Both the position numbers and the translations under genes were made by a program. Below are positions 6,719 through 50,590 of a stretch of DNA of 64,000 nucleotides, one piece after another (position 1 is the first letter of the stretch; the number at the start of each line of letters is the position of its first letter). This DNA is from Treponema sp. (GTDB lineage Bacteria; Spirochaetota; Spirochaetia; Treponematales; Treponemataceae). The notes beneath the pieces are model-generated. The model saw nothing but the letters and a program-made list of their open reading frames with translations. It ran no database searches and was not told the DNA's origin. The stretch is from assembly GCA_014803985.1 (NCBI GenBank), contig JAAVAO010000013.1, positions 1 through 64,000 of the forward strand. The letters run 5' to 3'.

Positions 6719-7089
6719 TTTTTGGAATCGGAGTTGATATTGTTGAAGTGAAAAGATTTGAACGATGGGTGAACAATCCCGACTTGATAGACCGCTATTT
6801 TAACAGTGCGGAAAAAAAATCCGGTCTTTCAGTAAGTGCCTTGTGTCAGCATTATGCGGTGCGTTTTGCCGCTAAAGAGGCGTTTTCAAAGGCGCTTGGA
6901 ACAGGGATTTCGGGATTTTTGCTTTCAGATGTGTATGTAAAGAGCGATGAGAGGGGGAAGCCCGAACTTGTTATTTGTGATTCTGCTAAAACGCTTTTAG
7001 ATTCTACATGTGGAAAATGCACTGTGCATATTTCACTTTCCCATGAAAAAGGGTATGCAGTTGCATTTGTTGTGATTGAAAAAGATTGA
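6715..7089 (+). CDS. acpS: Holo-[acyl-carrier-protein] synthase
   Basis: A 124-residue AcpS that moves 4'-phosphopantetheine from CoA to the serine of apo-ACP. Seen: N-terminal IFGIGVDIVEVKRFE (metal-binding Asp at GxGxDIVE), RFAAKEAFSKALGTG (catalytic Glu/Lys helix) and C-terminal SLSHEKGYAVAFV. GTG start overlaps the cdaR stop (GTGA, 6715-6718), with AAGGAGAG just upstream. Length is typical of the trimeric class. Confidence 0.95.
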   Translation: MIFGIGVDIVEVKRFERWVNNPDLIDRYFNSAEKKSGLSVSALCQHYAVRFAAKEAFSKALGTGISGFLLSDVYVKSDERGKPELVICDSAKTLLDSTCGKCTVHISLSHEKGYAVAFVVIEKD

Positions 7090-7121
7090 TTATTGCGAAG
7101 TGCCTTGATATGGAGGGATGA

Positions 7122-7991
7122 ATGGCTAAAAAAGTGGAAAAGAAACCTGCTATTTCATATTGGTCAAAGGATGAATTGGTGTGTCCTGTTTGCTCAACAT
7201 CGTTCAGAAGAGAGATTATGTTGAGTGGAAATGGACGAATGATTGCAGGGGGGCTTAACGATGACTTGCATCGAACATTTGAGCCGTCGTCGAAATTTGG
7301 CGTTATTTATCCGTTGATTTATGAAATTGGAGCGTGTCCAAAATGTTTTTCAGCGTTTTTATGGAATGATTTTAAGGATCTCAAAAAAAAAGATGTAATA
7401 GACACTCTGTATTCTAAAAGAGAGGAGCGAAAGTCAAAGGTAGAGGTTATTTTTCCCCATTTTAATTTGACAAGGGAGCGCACCCTTTATGACGGGGCGG
7501 CAATGTATTATTTGGCTCTGCTTACATATACTGATGTGAACAAGGAGTTGATCCCGACGATGAAATCCGCTTTTATTGCTTTGCGTTTAGCGTGGTTGTG
7601 TCATGACCTTGAGGAGACTTGTCCGGGATATAATTTTGAATATATTTCACAGATTTTTTACAGAAAGGCAATGTTTTTTTACAATCAAGCGATACTATAT
7701 GAAGCTGATGCGACTGAACGCTCTTCTGCATTGAATAATTTTGGTCCCGATATGGACAAAAATTATGGTTGGGATGGAGTTATTTATATTAGGGGGCTTT
7801 TAGAGTTCAAGTACGGGCAAACTGAAAATGTTCAACAGAGAATGAAAATGTTGACAGAGGCGAAAACTTCAATCGCTCGAATTTTTGGACTGGGAAAATC
7901 TTCTAAAGATAAACCAGGACCGTTGCTTGAAAAAGCTCGTGATTTATATGAGAAAATGACCAAAGAGCTGAATGAAAACGACATTTTGTAA
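7122..7991 (+). CDS. DUF2225 zinc-ribbon protein
   Basis: A 289-residue protein of the DUF2225 family, common in spirochaetes and Firmicutes. The N-terminus holds a split zinc site, CPVC at about residues 21-24 and CPKC at about 69-72, separated by a segment including YPLIYEIGACP. The remainder is alpha-helical and TPR-like (YYLALLTYTDV..., FYRKAMFFYNQAI). No enzymatic motif is seen and the function is unknown. It follows acpS after 32 bases with GGAGG upstream of ATG 7122. Confidence 0.85.
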   Translation: MAKKVEKKPAISYWSKDELVCPVCSTSFRREIMLSGNGRMIAGGLNDDLHRTFEPSSKFGVIYPLIYEIGACPKCFSAFLWNDFKDLKKKDVIDTLYSKREERKSKVEVIFPHFNLTRERTLYDGAAMYYLALLTYTDVNKELIPTMKSAFIALRLAWLCHDLEETCPGYNFEYISQIFYRKAMFFYNQAILYEADATERSSALNNFGPDMDKNYGWDGVIYIRGLLEFKYGQTENVQQRMKMLTEAKTSIARIFGLGKSSKDKPGPLLEKARDLYEKMTKELNENDIL

Positions 7992-8032
7992 TGTTTTGTA
8001 TTGCTATTTTTTCGGTTTTTAACGGTTGATAA

Positions 8033-8824
8033 ATGAAAAATATTCTTCTTACAATATCTTATGATGGAACGGACTTTTGCGGTTGGCAAAGACAGGATGC
8101 AAACGGTGTGAAAAATGTCCGCAGAACAGTACAGGGCGAACTTGAATGCGCCATTGAAAAACTAATCGGTTTTGAAACACCCCTGTGTGGTTCTGGGAGA
8201 ACGGATTCGGGCGTTCATGCGGAAGGACAGGCGGCTCATTTTTTTTCTCCAATCGATTCATTTCCTGTGAAAAATTATATCCGTGCTTTGAATGCTATTT
8301 TACCTCGCGATATACGCATAGTAAATGCGGAGGAACGGCCAATGCATTTTAACGCCCGATTTAATGCGACAAGCCGCGTCTACAGATATTTTATGTATGT
8401 TGGAGAAGATGCAGACGCGCTTATAAATCGTTTTGCCTGGTGCATACATTTTTGTCCAAATATAGATGCACTGAACGAAATGGCGGCATTTTTAAAAGGT
8501 GAAATGGATTTTGATGCGTTTTCCGCAAGTGGAGATAAAAGTCCTTCTAAAAAACGCTATATAGAACGGGCTCAGTTTTTTTATGAACGTTTTTTCCCGT
8601 CTGGAAAAGAGGCGTTGGTTTTTGAAATAGAGGCGAACGCGTTTCTGTGGAAAATGGTGCGCTCTATAACGGGTACATTGATGAATTTAGCGAGGGTAAA
8701 TGCCGCTCCTAGTGCATTCAAAAAAGTGCTGGATGGTAAAAACCGCAAAGATGCAGGTCCTACTGCCCCCCCAACAGGACTTTTTCTGTATAAAGTCAAT
8801 TTTGACGGAATCCGAAGGCATTAG
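8033..8824 (+). CDS. truA: tRNA pseudouridine(38-40) synthase
   Basis: A 263-residue TruA that converts uridines 38, 39 and 40 of the anticodon arm to pseudouridine. The catalytic Asp lies in GSGRTDSGVHAEGQAAHF (about residue 60). Other landmarks are the N-terminal ILLTISYDGTDFCGWQRQ, FNARFNATSRVYRYF, and ITGTLMNLARV near the end. ATG 8033 is preceded by a weak GGTTGAT site. It follows the DUF2225 gene after 41 bases and is the last gene of this plus-strand run. Confidence 0.96.
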   Translation: MKNILLTISYDGTDFCGWQRQDANGVKNVRRTVQGELECAIEKLIGFETPLCGSGRTDSGVHAEGQAAHFFSPIDSFPVKNYIRALNAILPRDIRIVNAEERPMHFNARFNATSRVYRYFMYVGEDADALINRFAWCIHFCPNIDALNEMAAFLKGEMDFDAFSASGDKSPSKKRYIERAQFFYERFFPSGKEALVFEIEANAFLWKMVRSITGTLMNLARVNAAPSAFKKVLDGKNRKDAGPTAPPTGLFLYKVNFDGIRRH

Positions 8825-40103: not shown

Positions 40104-42097
40104 CGTTCCTTGAAATTGTCTTGAACATTCCGCTCAATCAAACCTTTACATACTCTTATGTTCCTCCTGAAAATGAAAAAGATGAATTAAAGCCTGAAGT
40201 TGGTAAGCGCGCGGAAGTGAGGCTTGGAAACAGAAAAATGACGGGTTTTATAATCGCACTTTATGACCATATTCCGTCTTCTTGTCCTGTTGGAGAGGAG
40301 AAAATTCGGCACATAACAAAAATAATAGATGAAGAGCCACTCTTTACTGATGAAATTTTTGAAATGGCACAGTGGCTTTCATGCTATTATGTGTGTTCGA
40401 TAGGAGAGGCACTTTTTGCAATGATTCCATCTACAGGAAAGCGGGAAAGCAGCTCTCCCTCCTTTGCCTTTGAGTCAGACATATCTGAAAAATCGACAAC
40501 CATTCTTTCTGATGAACAGACACGTGCCGTTGATGAAATCATTTCACAATCGGAAAAGAACATCTATCATTATCTTTATGGACCGACTGGAACTGGAAAG
40601 ACGGAGGTTTTTCTTCAGGCAGCGGAACGTGTGCTTGCACAAGGAAAAGGCGTTATTTATCTTGTGCCGGAAATCGGATTAACTCCGCAGGTTGTGAAAG
40701 CGGTTCAATCTCGTTTTGGAAACACTGCCGCAATTCTTCACTCCGCGCTCACTCCGAGCCAAAAACTTACACAATGGAAGAAAATTATGCGCAGAGAGTC
40801 GCGAATTGCAATTGGGGCTCGAAGCGCGGTTTTTGCTCCAATGCCAGATTTGGGGCTTATAATAATTGACGAGGAACACGATGGCTCGTACAAGTCAGGC
40901 GACACTCCTCGTTACCATGCCCGTCAATTTGCAATGTATCGTTGCTCTCGTTTGAAAATTCCTTTGGTTATGGGAAGTGCAACTCCGTCTGTCGAAGCGT
41001 ATCATTTTATGAAACAGGGAAAAATTATTCGCCACACGTTGACAAAACGACTTGCAGGCGGTGAAATGCCGTCGATAAAGACAATAAATCTTTCTGCCAT
41101 TCCATCGTCAGGATGCATTTCAAAGGAACTTGAGGATGAAATCCGAAGGACGGTTGAGAATAAAAGGCAGGTGATTTTGTTTTTGAACAGGAGGGGGTTC
41201 AACCATTTCTTTCGGTGCAATTCATGCGGATATGAATTGTTGTGCAAAAACTGTTCTGTTCCAATGACATATCACATAAAGGATAACAGGTTGCGGTGTC
41301 ACTACTGCAACTGGTCAATTGTTCCTCCTGTTTCATGTCCTGTTTGCGGCTCTGTTGATATTGGGTACTCTGGCTTTGGGACGGAGTATATTGAGGTGGA
41401 GGCGCGCACTAAATTTCCTAATTCACGTATTATTCGCATAGATCGCGACAGTCTCACTAAAAAAGGCGAATTGGAAAAGGCTCTTGATGACTTTAGGCGC
41501 GGTGAATACGACATCATGCTGGGAACGCAAATGATTGCAAAAGGCTTGAACTTTCCGAACTTGCAGTTGGTCGGGGTGGTGCTTGCCGATACTGCCCTGC
41601 ATCTTCCAGATTTTAGGGCGGCAGAAAGAACGTTTTCTCTGATAACGCAAGTGGCAGGGCGCGCGGGACGGTATTTTCCAGACGGAAAAGTTTTTGTGCA
41701 GACATATAATCCATTTTGTGAGCCTATAAAATATGCGTGTGAGGGCGATGTAAATGCATTTTACCAGTACGAACTTTCTCAACGAAAGACTCAGTGCTTT
41801 CCGCCGTTTTCCCGCTTGGTCAGACTTGTGTTTCGCTCGGCGTTTCAGAATGTTGCAGAGGCAAATGCAGAGCAGGCGGCAAAAATCCTTTCTGATTTTT
41901 TAGGCGAAAATGGAGAGGTTCTCGGTCCTGCTGAATGTCCGATATTGCTCATTGCAAAAAATTACCGCTATCAGATTTTGTTGCGCGGTCAAACTATTAC
42001 CCCGTTGCAAAATGCCGCAGAGCATCTTCTTCGCAGTTATAACCATCCCCAAAATGTCTATATAGAGTGCGATGTTGATCCAGTGTCTCTGATGTAG
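40100..42097 (+). CDS. priA: Primosomal replication restart helicase PriA
   Basis: A 665-residue PriA. N-terminal 3'-DNA-end binding region; helicase motif I YGPTGTGKTEVF (about residue 154), DEEH (motif II), eight zinc-binding Cys in CNSCGYELLCKNC...CHYCNW...CPVCGS, and GTQMIAKGLNFPNLQ (motif IV/V). It restarts stalled forks. TTG start (40100) overlaps the glycosylase stop by 4 bases with GGGAG at 40089. An array of palindromes begins five bases after the stop. Confidence 0.95.
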   Translation: MTFLEIVLNIPLNQTFTYSYVPPENEKDELKPEVGKRAEVRLGNRKMTGFIIALYDHIPSSCPVGEEKIRHITKIIDEEPLFTDEIFEMAQWLSCYYVCSIGEALFAMIPSTGKRESSSPSFAFESDISEKSTTILSDEQTRAVDEIISQSEKNIYHYLYGPTGTGKTEVFLQAAERVLAQGKGVIYLVPEIGLTPQVVKAVQSRFGNTAAILHSALTPSQKLTQWKKIMRRESRIAIGARSAVFAPMPDLGLIIIDEEHDGSYKSGDTPRYHARQFAMYRCSRLKIPLVMGSATPSVEAYHFMKQGKIIRHTLTKRLAGGEMPSIKTINLSAIPSSGCISKELEDEIRRTVENKRQVILFLNRRGFNHFFRCNSCGYELLCKNCSVPMTYHIKDNRLRCHYCNWSIVPPVSCPVCGSVDIGYSGFGTEYIEVEARTKFPNSRIIRIDRDSLTKKGELEKALDDFRRGEYDIMLGTQMIAKGLNFPNLQLVGVVLADTALHLPDFRAAERTFSLITQVAGRAGRYFPDGKVFVQTYNPFCEPIKYACEGDVNAFYQYELSQRKTQCFPPFSRLVRLVFRSAFQNVAEANAEQAAKILSDFLGENGEVLGPAECPILLIAKNYRYQILLRGQTITPLQNAAEHLLRSYNHPQNVYIECDVDPVSLM

Positions 42098-42101
42098 GGC
42101 G

Positions 42102-42412
42102 GGCGAATGCTTCAATTCCTCGTACAGTGAGTACGGGTTTTGCATTCGCCTTCAGTTTTGCTACCTCGCAACGCTCGGCTTTACGCAAAACTGGCTAGGG
42201 GATTTTAAAATTGTGGAAAATGCCTCAATTCCTCGTTCAATGAGTATTAGTTTTGCATTCGCCTCGGTTTTGTACGCGAGTTTGCATTGCAAACTCGATA
42301 GCAATTCCGTAGGAATTGCGTATTTTGCTACCTCGCAACGCTCAGGCTTACGCAAAACTGACTAGGGGATTTCCACACTATGGGGAATGCCTCAATTCCT
42401 TGTTTGGAATTT
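42102..42412. repeat. Modular palindrome array A, site 3 (priA-rnf locus)
   Basis: Three H1 and two H2 hairpins in the same orientation as site 2. H1: GGCGAATGC (42102) / GCATTCGCC (42142-42150), then GAATGCC / GCATTCGCC (to 42263); the third is truncated, its closing arm missing. H2: CAGTTTTG (42153) / CAAAACTG (42186-42193) with the 25-base core, and CGGTTTTG (42265) / CAAAACTG (42353-42360) with an 80-base core that joins the 54-base and 25-base core types. The rest of the 366-base gap is AT-rich and holds a TATAGA box (42451). Confidence 0.93.
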
Positions 42413-42463
42413 TTGATTTTGCTGTTCACATAAAGTGTTGTTTTTGATAGTATAGACAAATCA

Positions 42464-43864
42464 ATGAAATACATAAAAGAATATATTGTGCCGTTTAGTA
42501 TCGCTGTTTTCTCTCTTGTGCTGTTGTGCTTATGTAAATCTGCGCCTGCATCAAAGTTGTGGAGAGGGTATTCGATTTTGTATGTTCCCATTGAGGCGGA
42601 TTGGGCGGAGGCTTCAAGAATTTTGCGGGATGCGGGCTGCGATGAAGTCATAGATGTAGAAAATCAATATGTTCCGCTTGAAATTTCTGAAAAAACGCCA
42701 GAGGTTTCGCTCTCTTTGTTGTCAATTGAAAAATCCGACTATCTTACCAAGAGAAATCTATATTTCTTTGATAAAAGCAATCGATATAGAATATGTTATG
42801 TTCCCGACTCGCAACTACACAGTGCAGAAAAAGCCGTTTTTGAAATGAATAGAAATGGAATATCAGCGGGAATGAACGGAAATGCGGCGTTTCCGTTTAT
42901 TGTTCCGATTGCTTGTCTTGTCTTTGCGGTGCTTCTCGTCCTTTTTTCTCATAAGAGAAAATCTTTGGCAATTCTTCTGTTTCTACCTGTATTCTTTTCG
43001 TTTTCACAAGCCTTTTATTCTTCGGCGGTTATTTCCTGTCTGTTTATGTATGTCGTATACCTTTTTATTGAAATAGGGGATAGAACGGGTGCTCTTCTCT
43101 GTATTTTTAGAAACGTTGCCATCGTTTTGTTTTTAGCGATTTCGTTTTTGGCGGCGATATTCAATGGAATCAAGTGTTCATTGCTGTTTATCGGCATGAC
43201 ATTCGGAGTTGCGGCGCTGACCGTTCTATTGTCAAACTACGAAAAATTTTTAAACTCAAAAAAAATGTTTGTTTCCGTAAAAATAATTCCTGCAAAAATG
43301 ATTTCTCTTTCAACAAAAAAATCTAGAGGCGCGCTTTTGATTTTTGCCGCATTGACTGTGTGTGTTCTTTTGAGTGCCTCTTTTTCCTCATCGGTGTCTC
43401 AGTTTGGCTCAGCTTCAAACATTGTTGTGCCAGGACCTTCATATAGCCTTGAAAGCCTGCCAACAATCAATGACTATGTTGACTGGAGATGGGAAACGAT
43501 GACATTTCCATATATTTCGCTTAACGGACGAGAAAGGTTTCAAAGACCAAAACGCGGAAGCAAAATTGTCTTTACTGAATATGATGATTCTAGTGGCATT
43601 ATAGAACCTTTGGAACGTTCCATTGAATATAACTCGGACTTTGTTTCAAACGCAATGGCTGTTGTTGATGGCTTTGATTATCCTGCACTAGAAAAGTTTC
43701 TAAAGGTGCAAAATAATACATCAACAGGATATGTTTCATCTGGAAATATAAGACTGTCGCTTTCAACAATTATGTTTCTTTTGCTGGCAATTTTTATTTC
43801 CGTAGGATTGTACATTGTTCAAAGGCATTTTAGAAAAACAATGATTTTGTGGGGGAGAGGATGA
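42464..43864 (+). CDS. Polytopic membrane protein, first gene of the rnf operon (unknown function)
   Basis: A 466-residue protein. Topology: one N-terminal helix (8-25), an exported domain of about 115 residues (YVPIEADWAEASRILRDAGCDE...), four or five helices at about 143-250, one at about 285-305, a second exported region containing WRWETMTFPYISLNGRERF, and a final helix near 425-447. No catalytic motif. The stop overlaps the rnfC start (ATGA, 43861-43864), so it is part of the rnf transcript. ATG 42464 has no ribosome binding site and follows a TATAGA box (42451-42456) by 7 bases. I do not recognise the family. Confidence 0.75.
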   Translation: MKYIKEYIVPFSIAVFSLVLLCLCKSAPASKLWRGYSILYVPIEADWAEASRILRDAGCDEVIDVENQYVPLEISEKTPEVSLSLLSIEKSDYLTKRNLYFFDKSNRYRICYVPDSQLHSAEKAVFEMNRNGISAGMNGNAAFPFIVPIACLVFAVLLVLFSHKRKSLAILLFLPVFFSFSQAFYSSAVISCLFMYVVYLFIEIGDRTGALLCIFRNVAIVLFLAISFLAAIFNGIKCSLLFIGMTFGVAALTVLLSNYEKFLNSKKMFVSVKIIPAKMISLSTKKSRGALLIFAALTVCVLLSASFSSSVSQFGSASNIVVPGPSYSLESLPTINDYVDWRWETMTFPYISLNGRERFQRPKRGSKIVFTEYDDSSGIIEPLERSIEYNSDFVSNAMAVVDGFDYPALEKFLKVQNNTSTGYVSSGNIRLSLSTIMFLLLAIFISVGLYIVQRHFRKTMILWGRG

Positions 43865-45240
43865 CTGTATTTTCACATATTTCCACATTAAAAAAAGATG
43901 CATTTAAAAACACCGCAAACGCTTTTGTTCCCAATTCAGTTTTAGTTCCCATCAAGCAGGATTGCGAAAACGACTGTGAATGGCTTGTGAAAGCAGGGGA
44001 TATAGTGAGTGAAGGACAGATTATTGCAGCGTCGTATGGAGGCGATTTTAAATCGTCTGTTTATTCTCCTATTCCTGGAGTTGTAAAGGGCATTGAACTT
44101 TGTGTATGTCCGGACGGAAGAATGTGCGAGGCGGCACGGATAAATCTTTCAGGAAAATTTTCTTTTTTGGGAAAGACTCTCAAAAAATCAGACGCCACTT
44201 TATATTCTGACAGACTCTTGCTTTCTGAAATAGAGAAAAATGGGATTATAAACACGTTTACAGTGAACGAGCCGCGCCTTTTGGCAAGCGATATTTCAAA
44301 GGCAAAAAAACACTCAGGCTCAAAATTACTTGTTGTGCGCCTTTTTGATGAAGACCCCAGCCGATTGACCGATGCATTGATTACAAAAATGTTTACAGAA
44401 AATGTGCTGTCTGGCGCAGAAATTGTTGCAGCGGCGCTTGGAGCGGATGGAATTGTGCTAGCTTCGGAAAAGGGCTTTGAAATTCCCAGCCATTCAACTA
44501 AAGAAAAGAGTGAAAAATCACCCGACCTTGTGAAGCCCACAGACAAAAAAATTCCGCTGTTTTCAATAGCATTGAATCCAAAAAAATATCCGGTAGGCTA
44601 TAAAGACGAAATTATACGCGCAGTGAAAAAATCACTGAAATCTTCACCGTTGTGCAAGGGAATTTCAAAAAAATCGCTTTTTATCGATTCATCTACGGCT
44701 TTTGAAACATTTCGCACCGTTTCCTTTACTATGCCGGTGATTGATAGATATGTATATATTTCGGGAAGTTGCATTCCGACTACAGGCATTCTAAAAGTTG
44801 CCATCGGAACTTCTATAAGAGATTTGGCTGAACAGTGCGGAGGTTTTATAAAGTCTCCAGAGGCGATAATTATCAATGGAATTGTATGCGGCGTTTCTTC
44901 AGGAACATTGGACGCACCTATTACAAAATATGTAAAGTCCATAACATTCCTTCCGCAGTCAAAAATGCCCTGCCAAAAGCAATTTGAATGCATTCAGTGT
45001 GGGAATTGTCGCCGCATTTGTCCATTGCATCTTTCTCCTGATGTGATTTATAGCAAAATGGTTTTTCCGTACACAAGAGATGCAGACGATGTGTATATAA
45101 AAACTTCGGAACTATGCAATGGCTGCGGACTGTGCAGTGCTTGTTGTCCCGCACGATTACCATTGAGTCAAGTGATTTATAAAATTGCCGCCGTGCAAAA
45201 TGCAAGCACGGAGATAGGCAGTGGAATGGAGGAAAGGTAG
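43861..45240 (+). CDS. rnfC: RnfC-like subunit lacking NADH/FMN signatures
   Basis: A 459-residue RnfC homologue. N-terminal barrel (1-85), a central region where the Rossmann-type domain should be, an SLBB-like strand set (YISGSCIPTTGILKVAIGTSIRDLAEQCGG, about 298-327), and two 4Fe-4S motifs with Cys at about 377, 380, 383, 387 and 419, 422, 425, 428. The canonical GGAGFPT glycine loop and the GAECEP loop are absent: the equivalent stretches (about 124-145 and 160-170) read IEKNGIINTFTVNEP and VVRLFDEDPSRL. ATG 43861 (ATGA overlap) is preferred to GTG 43849. Homology to RnfC is clear in order and Fe-S pattern, but nucleotide binding is doubtful. Confidence 0.85.
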   Translation: MTVFSHISTLKKDAFKNTANAFVPNSVLVPIKQDCENDCEWLVKAGDIVSEGQIIAASYGGDFKSSVYSPIPGVVKGIELCVCPDGRMCEAARINLSGKFSFLGKTLKKSDATLYSDRLLLSEIEKNGIINTFTVNEPRLLASDISKAKKHSGSKLLVVRLFDEDPSRLTDALITKMFTENVLSGAEIVAAALGADGIVLASEKGFEIPSHSTKEKSEKSPDLVKPTDKKIPLFSIALNPKKYPVGYKDEIIRAVKKSLKSSPLCKGISKKSLFIDSSTAFETFRTVSFTMPVIDRYVYISGSCIPTTGILKVAIGTSIRDLAEQCGGFIKSPEAIIINGIVCGVSSGTLDAPITKYVKSITFLPQSKMPCQKQFECIQCGNCRRICPLHLSPDVIYSKMVFPYTRDADDVYIKTSELCNGCGLCSACCPARLPLSQVIYKIAAVQNASTEIGSGMEER

Positions 45241-45243
45241 AAT

Positions 45244-46323
45244 ATGAATATGAGAAAGGTTATTATTCGCCCATTCACTTATTTAAAGTCTTCAATGGAA
45301 ATGGAGTGCAATCGAATCATTGCATTGCTTGCACTACAGGTGCTTCTTCTATTTATGAGCAAGAGTTTTATGGCGGTTGTAGTTATTTTTTCCGCTGTTG
45401 CCGCGTCTGTAGTTTCCACTATTATTTGCAATCGAACAAAATGTTTTACAAGCGGAAACCATTACTCGTATTCTGTAAGTATAGTGCAGGGGCTTTTAGT
45501 TGGGATGTTATTGCCAGAAACATATCCGCCGCTTACTGTCTTTGTTGTGACATTTTGCACGATGCTTATCGGAAAATACATTTACAAGAATTTCTACTAT
45601 AATTTTATGAATCCCAGTGTTTTTGCGCTTGCTGTTCTTTATATCATCGGAGCGGGAGTGTTTGCCTCGTCTGTCGTTTCACTTGACTTGCTTTCCTCTA
45701 GAAATCCATCTCAAATTCTTATAGAAAGCGGTTTTTTCCCGACTGTATCCTTTGACACAACGGTAACCGATTTTTTGAACAAAACTGTTTTTAGTGTGTT
45801 CAAGTTTTCAATTCCCGAAGGCTATATTTCACTGTTATGGGACACACACTCTGCAATTCCTGCATTTCGCTTTAATTTTTTGACTTTGATTTCATCTGTT
45901 GTGTTATTTATGTTTGATGAAATTAAAATAATTATCCCCGCTTTTTTTGTGATTGTCTATCTTGCATTGGTCAGAATGATGGCCCCGTTGTTTTTCAATG
46001 GCATTCCAATGCAGGGGGATATTTTGCTTGCCGTTTTTACGAGCGGAACTTTGTTTACTGCGGTTTTTGTTATAAATTGGTACGGCTCTATTCCTGAAAC
46101 TATTGGCGGAAAAATTGTATTTGGAGTGATTGCAGGAATTTTGGCATTTTTTATTTGTGGATGCGGGGATTCTCCCATCGGAATGGTGTTTACCGTTTTT
46201 GTTGCAGACTTCATTGCACTGTTTATACAGCATTTTGAGATGAAGAATGATTTTGTTCATGCAAGTCGTCTTGCAGATTCGCTTGTGCGCAGCAAAGAGT
46301 CTGGCGTTCTGGAGGTGAAGTAA
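45244..46323 (+). CDS. rnfD: RnfD-like membrane subunit
   Basis: A 359-residue polytopic protein of RnfD/NqrB type (about nine helices). NPSVFALAVLYI and GCGDSPIGMVFTVFVADFIAL match conserved RnfD positions. Standard RnfD carries FMN on Thr in an S/T-G-A-T motif; here the corresponding stretch reads SFDTTVTDFL (about residues 176-185), keeping a Thr but not the Gly-Ala. Four bases from rnfC; one-base overlap with rnfG. Confidence 0.82.
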   Translation: MNMRKVIIRPFTYLKSSMEMECNRIIALLALQVLLLFMSKSFMAVVVIFSAVAASVVSTIICNRTKCFTSGNHYSYSVSIVQGLLVGMLLPETYPPLTVFVVTFCTMLIGKYIYKNFYYNFMNPSVFALAVLYIIGAGVFASSVVSLDLLSSRNPSQILIESGFFPTVSFDTTVTDFLNKTVFSVFKFSIPEGYISLLWDTHSAIPAFRFNFLTLISSVVLFMFDEIKIIIPAFFVIVYLALVRMMAPLFFNGIPMQGDILLAVFTSGTLFTAVFVINWYGSIPETIGGKIVFGVIAGILAFFICGCGDSPIGMVFTVFVADFIALFIQHFEMKNDFVHASRLADSLVRSKESGVLEVK

Positions 46324-46796
46324 TGCTTGAAATAAACACACGGGAAACCTTTAGAGTGTTTGGAATTTTTACGGGTGTTCTTGTCGTTCTTTTTTTTCTT
46401 GATTTTGGATTTGTTCGTCTTGCCCAAAAAAGCTGGAATTCAGGAATGTATAATGCGCTTGGTGCAATTCTTGATGAAAAACAGCCTGGTGTTTGGAGAA
46501 TTGACCACCCCATAAAAATAGATTCTCCATTTGCAACAAGCGCGCAGGCTTTTGAAGTTCAAAATATGCAAAATGGAAAAAGATCACGTGCGATTATTGT
46601 GCGAACGACTACAATTTTTGGACCGTATCCCGCTGTTTTTATTTATGACAGTGCGTCTGGATCTGAATTCATAGGGTATGCTTGTGTTTCAGGGAGAATA
46701 AAGAAACTCCTTGAGGAAAATGGCAATTCAGTTATAAGAGATTACTGGGCGGCTAGAATCAAAAGTATAATAGGTGCGGAAAAGGAGGCAAAATAA
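46323..46796 (+). CDS. rnfG: RnfG-like subunit without flavinylation motif
   Basis: A 157-residue protein with one N-terminal helix (about 13-32) and an exported domain, at the position and with the topology of RnfG. The S/T-G-A-T FMN attachment motif is not present anywhere; the best local match is YDSASGSEFIGYAC. Assigned by operon position and shape, so moderate confidence. ATG overlaps rnfD and rnfE by one base on each side. Confidence 0.65.
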   Translation: MLEINTRETFRVFGIFTGVLVVLFFLDFGFVRLAQKSWNSGMYNALGAILDEKQPGVWRIDHPIKIDSPFATSAQAFEVQNMQNGKRSRAIIVRTTTIFGPYPAVFIYDSASGSEFIGYACVSGRIKKLLEENGNSVIRDYWAARIKSIIGAEKEAK

Positions 46797-47410
46797 TGAC
46801 AAGAAAGGCAGTTTCCATTTATATGGCAATGACATGCGCAACAGCAATAGTTGTTCCTGGTCGATTTGCCATAGGAATAATTTTTGCGTTTGAGGCTCTT
46901 TTTATCTATTTTTTCTGCACGCTTTTTCGTTGCCTTTTAAATATTTTAAAGATGAAACAGGTTGTTTCTGTCTTGATGTGTGTGTTTATTGTTTCAATGA
47001 CAATTATTTTTAAACAGCTGCTCATTCTTTTTATGCCGCAAACTGCAATGCAACTCAGTTTTGTGCTTTATCTTCCTGCCATATCATCTTTTTCAACGGC
47101 ATTTCTTTTTGAAGATGAGAAATTTTCATTTGTTGACGACATAAAAAACACTATCTCTCCTGCCGTGGTTTTTTCAATTTATATGATAATAACAACGCTT
47201 TTTCGAGATATTTTTGGCTATGGCACATTGACGTTTCCAGCCCCGCGCAAAATGATTGAAATAGTGCTTTTTCCTGAAAATTACGTCTTTGCGGGCTCTT
47301 TTATTGCGACAATACCTGGTGCATTGATTTTTTCTGCAGTATTCTTATGCTTCTTCCTTGGAGTTGAAAATAAATTCCACATTTTGAGTAGAGCGGGGGT
47401 GCAAAAATGA
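46796..47410 (+). CDS. rnfE: RnfE-like membrane subunit
   Basis: A 204-residue protein with about six helices, aligning with RnfE by length, order and a retained TLFRDIFGYGTL motif (standard REIIGNGTL) around residue 134. RnfE normally has two conserved Cys, in GLCP and TNC; here the first is probably kept (MTCAT, residue 14) while the second is replaced (LPAISSFSTAF, about 94-103). Coupled to neighbours by 1- and 4-base overlaps. Confidence 0.7.
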   Translation: MTRKAVSIYMAMTCATAIVVPGRFAIGIIFAFEALFIYFFCTLFRCLLNILKMKQVVSVLMCVFIVSMTIIFKQLLILFMPQTAMQLSFVLYLPAISSFSTAFLFEDEKFSFVDDIKNTISPAVVFSIYMIITTLFRDIFGYGTLTFPAPRKMIEIVLFPENYVFAGSFIATIPGALIFSAVFLCFFLGVENKFHILSRAGVQK

Positions 47411-47970
47411 TCTATACACTTTTATATTACATATTCTTTTCCTCCGCCGTTTTGATTTATGGAGTGGGATTGAACGATGCAACTATTGTTTGTACGTCCA
47501 TTTCTGAATTACGATTGAATTTTACAAAGGTTGTGGCGTCAATTATAGGGACGGTTTGTCTTTCATGGACTATAATAAAATATTTTTTGCTCCCTCTCAA
47601 TTTGGCGGAACTGTATCCATTTGTTGCCGTGCTTATATTTCTTGCCATTTCAGTGTTTTTTGAAACTATGATACGCATCACCACAAAACGCACAACCGCT
47701 GACTTTAACTTTTCAATGCTGATAATAATTCTTACGCTTAATGAAAGCGTGCATATAATCGATGTGCTTTTGATTTCCGCTGCAAGTCTTGTTTCATTCT
47801 TTATAGTGCTTCCGTTTTTGTATGTGATTATGTCAAAATTTCATTTGACTGAGCAAAATGACAGTAGAAGGATGCTCTGCAAGCCGATTTTTTTGATTTC
47901 ATTTGCGGTTTTAATTATGGCTATATATGTTGTCAATGTTAGTTTCTTTTATCCAGGGAGTTTAAAATGA
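47407..47970 (+). CDS. rnfA: RnfA-like membrane subunit lacking both conserved Cys
   Basis: A 187-residue, six-helix protein matching RnfA in length and order. Standard RnfA has GLCP in its first helix and TTNCA in the fourth, whose Cys help bind a [2Fe-2S] cluster in the membrane. Here these read VGLNDAT (about 20-26) and LTLNESV (about 109-115), with no Cys at either. Starts by a 4-base overlap with rnfE. Confidence 0.7.
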   Translation: MIYTLLYYIFFSSAVLIYGVGLNDATIVCTSISELRLNFTKVVASIIGTVCLSWTIIKYFLLPLNLAELYPFVAVLIFLAISVFFETMIRITTKRTTADFNFSMLIIILTLNESVHIIDVLLISAASLVSFFIVLPFLYVIMSKFHLTEQNDSRRMLCKPIFLISFAVLIMAIYVVNVSFFYPGSLK

Positions 47971-48581
47971 TACTTAAGATTATTCTCTTTATCATTCTAT
48001 TTTTGGTCATCGTTGCAGTTCTTTTTTTCTTGATCTGCATTCTTTCCCCCGCAGTGAGCGAGCAAACCAGAATTGATGATAATATATTGCTTTCAAAATT
48101 TGAGCACAACTTTAAAAAAATTGACGGTCAATCTTCATCTTTTAAGACGGCTTCCAGTGAAAAAAGGGCTGTTGTACTTTGTTCCTGTGACAAACATTTT
48201 TCTTCCCCTCATCTTATGAAAAACACTTCAAGTCAATCTTGTGCAGTTATTGCCGCAGAATATTCATCTCTTTCAGACTGTCCGTTTATGTGCATAGGGA
48301 AGGGGGATTGCATTTCATCGTGTCCGCAAAACGCAATTGTAATAAAAAATGAAACCGCGGTGATTTCAAATGTATGCATAGGATGCGGCAACTGTGTTTC
48401 TGCATGTCCAAAGGGCATTATTTCTCTGATTGACAAGCGCATTGAAAAGACGGTGATTTGCTCAAACACCACAACGCGCCTGACCACGTGCGATTCATTA
48501 AAAAAAGAGCAAATAATTCCGCACCCCGAGAAAAAATACTTTAAAATATTTCAAAGTTGCTATAGAATATTGTTTGAGTAG
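47967..48581 (+). CDS. rnfB: RnfB-like ferredoxin subunit, shortened
   Basis: A 204-residue protein with an N-terminal helix (2-27) and two 4Fe-4S motifs: CPFMCIGKGDCISSCP (Cys 105, 109, 115, 119) and CIGCGNCVSACP (137, 140, 143, 147), matching the first two ferredoxin clusters of clostridial-type RnfB. The Fe-S module usually following the helix (CGxCGxxxC pattern) is absent; only CSCDK at about 72 remains. The chain ends soon after the second cluster. Last of six rnf genes; the GH57-like gene starts 11 bases later. Confidence 0.8.
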   Translation: MILKIILFIILFLVIVAVLFFLICILSPAVSEQTRIDDNILLSKFEHNFKKIDGQSSSFKTASSEKRAVVLCSCDKHFSSPHLMKNTSSQSCAVIAAEYSSLSDCPFMCIGKGDCISSCPQNAIVIKNETAVISNVCIGCGNCVSACPKGIISLIDKRIEKTVICSNTTTRLTTCDSLKKEQIIPHPEKKYFKIFQSCYRILFE

Positions 48582-48592
48582 TGTAAAAAGAA

Positions 48593-50590
48593 ATGCCAGT
48601 TTGTTTAAATATATGCATAGACTCATCGATTGTTGACACATCTAAAAAAAATGCGTTAGAAAAGGAATTCTCTTCGATTTTCAAGCCGATTTTGAAATTT
48701 TCTTATAGAAACGCGGATTTTAAATTAGCATTTCATTTTCATGGAACGCAATTAGAATTTTATAAAAAAGAGCATCCCGAATCCATAGAAATTATGCGAA
48801 CTTTGACAGATAGAAAGCAACTTGAAATCTTGGGCGGTGGATATTACGATCCTCTTTTTCCCTTGCTTTTTCCGCGAGACAGAACTACTCAACTGGATAT
48901 GCTTTCATATCTTGTTCGAGAAACGGTTGGAAAGAGACCTCGTGGAATAGTGCTGTGTGCGAGTGCGTGGGATGCATCTTTAGTACAATGTTTTTCTATA
49001 AGTGGCATGGAATATGTTATTCTTGACGAGGCTTTGATTCCTGCGCAAAAGCATAAATTCATTCCGCTCATTATGTCCGATAAGGGCAAGTCCATTACCA
49101 TTCTTTCCGCTGAAAATTCACTGAAGAAGAACACGACCCTTCCTCCTGATGAATTTCTTGCTGTTATTTTAAAGGCTGTAGAAAACGCAAATAAAACTTC
49201 TGAAGATTATATTTCATCTCTTGATAAAATTGTCACTATCCAATTTTCACTTCAAGAATTTGGCTCTCTCTTTTCCAATGGCTGGATGCAAAGCCTTTAT
49301 TCCCGTGTTTTAGAGCGCGATGACTTTTACTTTGGAAATCCAAATAACTATTTGAAGTCCGTTTCATTTAAAGTTCCACTTTATATTCCTTCTGGAATAT
49401 GCACTGAAATTGCACAACGGGCATATACTCCTTATAAATCCATAAACGATGAAAATGCATTGTCCGCCTCGATCTTTGACTTTTTGCAGGTTTATCCTCA
49501 AACGAACAGGCTTTACAGTCGGTTGCTCTATGTATGTCTGCTTGCAAACCAAAAGAAGGGCGATAAAATCCGAAAAAAAGTCGCCCGCGATAAAATTTTA
49601 GAGGCGCAGCGGGGAAGTGCTTTTATTGGTTTTCCAAGCGAAGCGTTTTTAAATTTTACTGATCGCCAGAATTCCTATAGAAATTTGATTGAAGCGGAAA
49701 AAATAATTCGTGAAATAGAAGATTTTTCGGAATCCCTTTTGGGTTTTGACTACAATGGGGATGGCTTGAACGAATATATCTTTAAAATGAAAGGGTATTT
49801 TGCCGTTGTTGACTTGAAAAGCGGAGCAATTCGAGAATTTGACGTAATGCAGTCAGGAGGAAATTACGCGGACAATTTAAGTCGAATGACTGAATTTGAT
49901 GGCTATGATGACGCCTATGAGAGGGGTTTTTTTATTGACCATATTTTCACGGACGATGAATTTAATCAGTATTTGAAAAACAAACCTGTTCGATCCGCAG
50001 TCTTTTCTCGCTCTGTATACACGGAAACAAAATGCGCTCCGCAACACAAGGAGTTGGAAATCCTTGCAAAATCAGTTTTTGGAAACAAGCAGCCTGTTTC
50101 TCTGCGTAAAAGATATATTGCCACTTCAAGCGGTATGATGATCCAGTATATTTTGAAAAATGAAAGTGCTGCACCACTTAACGCGAAATTCGCCGTTGAA
50201 ACAAGCCTTGCCCATATACATTTTAAAACGCAGGATTTTGAACCGTATAATTTGGAAATAGTTGTAAACGGCGAAAAGCAAAATATTGCCACGACTTCGT
50301 CTTCTGCTGATTTAATGCAAACGGGCTTTTATTCAAATGCGGAGTGCTTTTTACTCACCGATTCCAATAACTCTATTAGCTTCCTGTTTGAACCAAACGA
50401 ACCTTGCAATCTTTCTTTTGTTCCAATCGTTTTTAAACGTCCTAACTCAAATGGAGAAATAAATCCTGCAAGCATGTCCTTTGCAAGCACCTTGTTTTGG
50501 GATGTAAACTTACCTGCTGGAATGGAAATGGAAAAAACAATAAATTTCAGTTTCTTTTCCAAACGTAAAAAGACAAAAAAATCTTCGTAG
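48593..50590 (+). CDS. GH57-type alpha-amylase/glucanotransferase homologue, probably inactive
   Basis: A 665-residue protein with the GH57 order: N-terminal barrel, DUF1925-like and DUF1926-like C-terminal parts (DYNGDGLNEYIFKMKG at about 384). LGGGYYDPLFPLLFPRDRTTQ (about 80-100) matches the canonical GGFYEPIL...RDR block. The nucleophile segment, normally TERVWEP with catalytic Glu, reads CASAWDAS (about 122-129), and the acid/base segment, normally DDGEKFG, reads FSLQEFGS (about 218-225), so both carboxylates appear missing. It follows rnfB after 11 bases and probably belongs to the rnf transcript. Confidence 0.75.
   Translation: MPVCLNICIDSSIVDTSKKNALEKEFSSIFKPILKFSYRNADFKLAFHFHGTQLEFYKKEHPESIEIMRTLTDRKQLEILGGGYYDPLFPLLFPRDRTTQLDMLSYLVRETVGKRPRGIVLCASAWDASLVQCFSISGMEYVILDEALIPAQKHKFIPLIMSDKGKSITILSAENSLKKNTTLPPDEFLAVILKAVENANKTSEDYISSLDKIVTIQFSLQEFGSLFSNGWMQSLYSRVLERDDFYFGNPNNYLKSVSFKVPLYIPSGICTEIAQRAYTPYKSINDENALSASIFDFLQVYPQTNRLYSRLLYVCLLANQKKGDKIRKKVARDKILEAQRGSAFIGFPSEAFLNFTDRQNSYRNLIEAEKIIREIEDFSESLLGFDYNGDGLNEYIFKMKGYFAVVDLKSGAIREFDVMQSGGNYADNLSRMTEFDGYDDAYERGFFIDHIFTDDEFNQYLKNKPVRSAVFSRSVYTETKCAPQHKELEILAKSVFGNKQPVSLRKRYIATSSGMMIQYILKNESAAPLNAKFAVETSLAHIHFKTQDFEPYNLEIVVNGEKQNIATTSSSADLMQTGFYSNAECFLLTDSNNSISFLFEPNEPCNLSFVPIVFKRPNSNGEINPASMSFASTLFWDVNLPAGMEMEKTINFSFFSKRKKTKKSS

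Follow-up and report, generated by a model that had tools for sequence, protein, structure and literature searches.

A divergent Rnf-type gene cluster of treponemes that has lost most cofactor sites of the Rnf electron path

The divergent rnf locus and its cofactor sites

The window analyzed here, 64,000 nucleotides of a Treponema sp. contig (JAAVAO010000013.1), carries a divergent set of genes for Rnf, a complex known as a primary energy converter in anaerobes. At 43861-48581, six open reading frames (ORFs) that overlap or nearly so lie on the plus strand in the order C-D-G-E-A-B. The first-pass annotation, made from the window sequence alone, had recognized these six genes as one operon, and we identified the six homologous subunits there: RnfC-like (43861-45240), RnfD-like (45244-46323), a shortened RnfG-like protein (46323-46796), RnfE-like (46796-47410), RnfA-like (47407-47970) and RnfB-like (47967-48581). 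A canonical rnfCDGEAB locus with the usual motifs is present on the same contig at C14:107308-112658, ~62 kb downstream, and a PF01512 search located a second RnfC at C14:107686.

To compare the subunits, divergent profiles (61 rows; 44 for RnfB) were aligned by hhalign with canonical treponemal profiles (21 rows; 17 for RnfB). Every divergent subunit paired best with its own canonical counterpart (E-values: C, 2.3e-45; D, 1.3e-31; B, 3.1e-24; A, 1.2e-11; E, 1.9e-11), save for cross-hits between the ferredoxin domains of B and C; the RnfG match was weak, with a best E-value of 0.002 that covers the transmembrane anchor only. NCBIfam models matched RnfC (TIGR01945, 2.8e-45), RnfD (TIGR01946, 4.7e-16) and RnfB (PRK07118, 7e-19) below the curated cut-offs, and the window RnfG, RnfE and RnfA matched no Pfam or NCBIfam model. 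Among PDB chains, the RnfA profile matched RnfA (8ahx_A, 2.9e-8) and the top chains for the RnfE profile were RnfE/NqrD (8ahx_E, 7xk3_D and 7zc6_E; E-values 0.02-0.2). For RnfG, the profile found no Rnf match among PDB sequences; only the predicted structure gave one. The five best structural matches of its AlphaFold model (predicted local distance difference test [pLDDT], 92.6; predicted template modeling score, 0.81) were RnfG of A. woodii, C. tetanomorphum and A. vinelandii, at modest Z scores of 6.4-5.5 (9eri_G, 6.4; 7zc6_G, 6.2; 8rb8_G, 6.0), with 130-149 residues aligned at a root-mean-square deviation (rmsd) of 5.0-7.2. These modeled matches and the position of the gene make it likely that the RnfG-like protein is RnfG. 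Judged by profile and model, each of the six proteins is homologous to an Rnf subunit.

The cofactor residues were located by reference to the A. woodii structure, in which they are C25 and C113 of RnfA, C25 and C108 of RnfE, T156, D249 and N123 of RnfD and T185 of RnfG (PMC11889175). We then compared motif counts between 21 canonical treponemal sequences and 61 divergent Treponemataceae sequences. The GGAxFP and ECEP loops of RnfC, which form the flavin mononucleotide (FMN)/NADH site, are present in 21/21 canonical and 0/61 divergent sequences, the window RnfC having other residues in their place. Likewise, the cysteine pair of RnfA is found in 21/21 versus 0/61, and the segment bearing the second cysteine is deleted in all 61. 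For the RnfE pair the counts are again 21/21 versus 0/61, with a single cysteine in 11/61; Cys14 of the window RnfE is not conserved and is displaced by one position from the aligned ligand column, leaving this protein effectively without its [2Fe-2S] ligands. In RnfD, the FMN threonine column is kept in 21/21 canonical but 4/61 divergent sequences, in a poorly aligned region (F177 in the window), and the riboflavin aspartate (D249 in A. woodii) in 21/21 versus 8/61 (W279 in the window). The riboflavin asparagine, Asn123, survives in the window and in 57/61 divergent sequences (canonical, 21/21). The [ST]GA[TS] FMN-attachment motif, present in most canonical RnfG, occurs in 0/61 divergent RnfG, and the first CGxCG module of RnfB in 0/44 rows. 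What remains are the [4Fe-4S] motifs: both CxxCxxCxxxC motifs of RnfC are present in 61/61 sequences, and both RnfB cluster motifs in the window protein and in 41/44 rows; the remaining 3 rows hold a Cys-free ORF assigned by position. RnfB itself is absent from 20/60 Treponemataceae loci. As a separate observation on the canonical loci, RnfG is about 373-387 amino acids (aa) long in L212, L213, L214, L218, L219 and L222, and three of these carry two SGAT sites, which suggests tandem FMN_bind domains.

The first-pass annotation had read most of these losses from the window: the GGAGFPT and GAECEP loops of RnfC, both cysteines of RnfA, the FMN-attachment motif of RnfD and RnfG and the first CGxCG module of RnfB, with the ferredoxin clusters of RnfB and RnfC remaining. 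The losses extend to the whole Treponemataceae clade. Its reading of RnfE, one of two cysteines lost, was right about the loss and wrong about the retained residue, which is the off-column Cys14. The motifs have not merely shifted nearby: a free-pattern search of whole proteins found none in RnfC or RnfG, and the RnfA segment is deleted. In RnfD, the same search returned isolated SGAT and TGAS in two divergent sequences. Replacement of RnfG by a stray FMN_bind subunit was also rejected, as the only FMN_bind protein detected in the window genome (assembly 90% complete) is the canonical RnfG.

The old FMN/NADH pocket of RnfC has instead acquired new conserved residues: N131 (56/61), T132 (57/61), D163 (59/61), D165 (57/61), D276 (60/61), N339 (61/61) and K359 (59/61), numbered from the start of the 463-aa ORF in the alignment. 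In the window, the clade-specific residues read N131-T132-F133, D163-x-D165-P166, D276, N339 and K359-S360. Such residues are not the outcome of free decay, and they suggest a pocket for a different ligand.

Because of these cofactor-site counts, the divergent complex is very probably not a ferredoxin:NAD+ ion pump. We favor the reading that the divergent set is an Rnf paralogue in which the Rnf membrane architecture has been kept, that the Treponemataceae version no longer passes electrons through the membrane and that the set has probably been put to another use in the cell envelope; to this reading as a whole we give a probability of roughly 0.6.

Retention, selection and order of loss

A search with the window RnfD gave matches in 190/195 Treponemataceae genomes and in 124/124 good ones. 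By score, nearly all are of the divergent type; a few of the less complete genomes gave only one weak match, which may be canonical. A scan of the genome contigs with an alignment, where a single-sequence scan had given nothing, showed named relatives with the locus, among them T. porcinum, T. bryantii, T. socranskii, T. parvum, T. ruminis, T. saccharophilum and T. zioleckii. Apart from local departures, the 60 fetched Treponemataceae loci share one order, RND-like, C, D, G, E, A, (B), GH57-like. The departures are three loci with another ORF instead of B and GH57, and the locus of T. pallidum (G020), which has no RND-like gene. We take G020 as T. pallidum because its RnfD-like gene (173892-174908) spans position 174177, which is assigned to TPASS_20151 RnfD (PMC6103504). 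In one group of genus g20 (L086, 3583-4224; L087, 7292-7936; L088, 3635-4276), a Cys-free protein of ~213 aa, signal-like at its N-terminus and without a Pfam match, replaces RnfB and the GH57-like protein. In L086, the RnfC-like gene (6996-8272) is split into two ORFs, possibly by a frameshift or an assembly error.

The many motif losses and the repeated loss of RnfB could be taken for a locus in neutral decay. However, pairwise omega is ≤0.5, and mostly <0.3, for all eight genes (close pairs are noisy), so all of them are under purifying selection. Together with matches in all of the good family genomes, the low omega values led us to reject decay, whose probability is practically nil; the invariant cysteines and the new conserved residues also speak against it. 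The earlier judgment that this is not a decayed locus was thus sound.

At least 14 family genomes of ≥90% completeness have the divergent locus but no canonical RnfD, as does T. pallidum (G020). The divergent set is retained more faithfully than canonical Rnf among the treponemes sampled. This pattern bears on the idea that the divergent set is a regulatory or assembly partner of canonical Rnf that forms mixed complexes with canonical subunits. Both loci do co-occur in most genomes, but at least 15 genomes, T. pallidum included, have the divergent locus only. A helper of canonical Rnf was rejected on the strength of these genomes, and a role of this kind is highly improbable.

The same genomes bear on flavin use. 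G059 and G097 (98% and 96% complete) have the divergent locus and no FMN_bind protein, and G052, G097 and G107 have no ApbE. These genomes indicate that the divergent complex needs neither flavin function. They count, with the alteration of nearly every membrane cofactor site and the deletion of the RnfA cluster-ligand segment, against a functional Rnf ion pump that is driven by flavodoxin through unrecognized replacement cofactor sites. Such a pump would account for the retained gene order and topology and has been proposed in print for T. pallidum (PMC7512555; PMC11371664); we consider it improbable.

A profile search with the divergent RnfD revealed an order- and class-wide family, from which we sampled 32 related clusters in spirochaete families f2, f3, f4, f5, f17 and f60. 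In a tree of RnfC built by a quick method, with treponemal sequences and three solved ones as the canonical set, divergent and canonical sequences formed two clades with support of 100 each. Among the divergent sequences f60 and f17 branched first, then f2/f4, then f5, f3 and f1 (Treponemataceae). From this tree, the divergent set is probably an Rnf-operon paralogue that split off before the sampled spirochaete families diverged.

No divergent member in any family has the RnfC GGAxFP loop, and all retain both RnfC cluster motifs. The membrane sites follow the branching: f60 and several members of f4/f2 still have the four RnfA/RnfE cysteines, most f2/f4/f17/f60 members retain the FMN and riboflavin motifs of RnfD, and the RnfG SGAT is present in one f4 member and the f17 member. 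In f1 and f3 the membrane sites are lost, except for the riboflavin aspartate in many f3 members, and RnfB was not found in the sampled f3 loci. Since the early-branching families have membrane sites but no NADH loop, the NADH site was lost first and the membrane path later. Read on the tree, the losses are stepwise, older branches holding parts of the electron path.

These older branches give some footing to a shortened redox path, in which electrons from ferredoxin or flavodoxin would run on the cytoplasmic side only, through the Fe-S clusters of RnfB and RnfC and perhaps the RnfD riboflavin, to an acceptor other than NAD. Early-branching relatives keep the A/E, D and partly the G sites and not the NADH loops, and in the Treponemataceae the RnfC clusters (61/61), the RnfB clusters (41/44 rows) and the RnfD riboflavin asparagine (57/61) persist. 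However, RnfB is missing from a third of the Treponemataceae loci (20/60) and was not found in the sampled f3 loci, although the other subunits are retained. RnfC shows no flavin or nucleotide motif, and a short path leaves unexplained both why A, E, D and G are retained and why the set is linked to the DUF212, RND-like and GH57-like genes. We regard it as unlikely. The first-pass annotation had offered two readings, a repurposed or simplified Rnf-derived membrane complex or one with another electron partner. The former fits the clade-wide losses, the purifying selection and the second, canonical locus; the latter agrees with the membrane redox sites of the early-branching relatives and fails for the Treponemataceae, which have no visible membrane path.

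Neighboring genes and a possible envelope role

The cluster comprises nine genes: DUF212, an RND-fold protein, C-D-G-E-A-(B) and the GH57-like gene, with DUF212 displaced in the window genome. In 91/92 loci, the DUF212 (divergent PAP2) gene precedes the other genes on the same strand, usually ≤25 bases from the RND-like gene.

The RND-like gene (42464-43864, plus strand) overlaps the start of RnfC, encodes a membrane protein of 466 aa and adjoins RnfC in 59/60 Treponemataceae loci. Its predicted topology is transmembrane segment 1, a periplasmic domain, segments 2-7, a second periplasmic domain and segment 8, the last segments of the RND fold being missing. No Pfam family and no meaningful PDB sequence match was found with its profile. 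The best structural matches of its AlphaFold2 model (pLDDT 92.8) are RND proteins (MmpL4, Patched1, NPC1L1, AcrB and SecDF), the top ones being MmpL4 by Foldseek (E-value 0.012) and Patched1 by VIA-align (Z 9.9, rmsd 7.5, 233 residues aligned). We looked for a conserved acid in transmembrane segment 4, as in a proton relay, and found none.

Just past rnfB, the GH57-like or 4-alpha-glucanotransferase-like gene (48593-50590, plus strand; Pfam PF03065, 5e-23) has lost its catalytic residues. Compared with 1K1W, the window protein has alanine at the nucleophile E123 and is without the DDGEKFG and HNHQP motifs. Of the Treponemataceae members, 53/57 lack the nucleophile, as do the aligned f3 members; it is retained in most f2 and f4 members and in the f17 member; the DDGEKFG acid/base motif (D214 of 1K1W) is present in no GH57-like member.

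The flanks of the cluster are ordinary genes, with uracil-DNA glycosylase and priA before it and methionyl-tRNA synthetase after it. Between priA and the RND-like gene, short minus-strand ORFs at 41900-42651 contain the repeated peptides GIEAF and ERCEVAK and look like an intergenic repeat element.

The PAP2-like and RND-like genes point to envelope lipids as substrates, the dead GH57 to glycan binding and the invariant RnfC Fe-S motifs to a redox sensor or a short relay on the cytoplasmic side. In such a machine, the RND-like and PAP2-like proteins would handle the lipid part, be it envelope lipids or lipid-linked substrates, the GH57-like protein would bind glycan but not cleave it, and the Fe-S clusters would let RnfC control the complex from the cytoplasmic side, as a redox relay or sensor. 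A specific role of the subunits, as a membrane scaffold or a transporter that serves an envelope lipid or glycan, is doubtful. More broadly, and still tentatively, the divergent set might be a second Rnf offshoot besides Nqr, a redox pump turned stepwise into a non-redox envelope machine with RND-like, PAP2-like and catalytically dead GH57 partners, spread across spirochaetes and the sole "Rnf" of T. pallidum.

Several points weigh against a non-redox envelope complex. Other residues could hold flavins non-covalently, and the riboflavin asparagine (57/61) and aspartate (8/61) are kept to differing extents. RnfC, and often RnfB, keep their Fe-S motifs, which makes some cytoplasmic electron transfer likely. 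The envelope role rests on neighbors of uncertain function, with the RND assignment a fold match of a predicted model at modest Z. In the window genome itself, DUF212 is found elsewhere (C16:60906-61319) and not at 42098-42463.

Comparison with known systems

The T. pallidum locus (TP0151, rnfD, and its neighbors) is of the divergent type, without RnfB, redox sites or the RND-like gene. The literature treats this set as part of a pump: a noncanonical RNF pump was postulated for T. pallidum (PMC7512555), and TPASS_20151 RnfD has been described as part of an Rnf complex that oxidizes flavodoxin and makes an ion gradient (PMC11371664). By our sequence comparison, the genes so described are the divergent set, and the data argue against a pump role. 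The proposed Rnf is the published answer to the source of the ion gradient in T. pallidum, the syphilis spirochete, and the site losses reopen that question. The literature searched contained no description of a degenerate Rnf. The divergent family offers an ordered series of cofactor loss in a multi-subunit redox pump while the complex persists, which makes the role of an Rnf scaffold without electrons testable in culturable treponemes.

The divergent set shares with the Rnf complexes of A. woodii (9eri), C. tetanomorphum (7zc6) and A. vinelandii (8ahx) all six subunits as homologues, the order of their genes, and a pair of [4Fe-4S] motifs in RnfC and in RnfB where present. It differs in having no NADH/FMN loops, A/E cluster ligands or covalent-FMN sites, in the loss of most riboflavin aspartates, in an RnfB that is reduced or absent and in its fixed neighbors DUF212, RND-like and GH57-like.

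Nqr, which remodeled its RnfC homologue, is a further parallel. It is an offshoot of a duplicated rnf operon from which rnfB was lost (PMC12174285), and the spirochaete set would likewise be an Rnf offshoot. However, Nqr retains membrane cofactors and gained NqrF, whereas the divergent set lost the membrane cofactors and kept the RnfC Fe-S motifs. It appears as an offshoot separate from Nqr, in spirochaetes.

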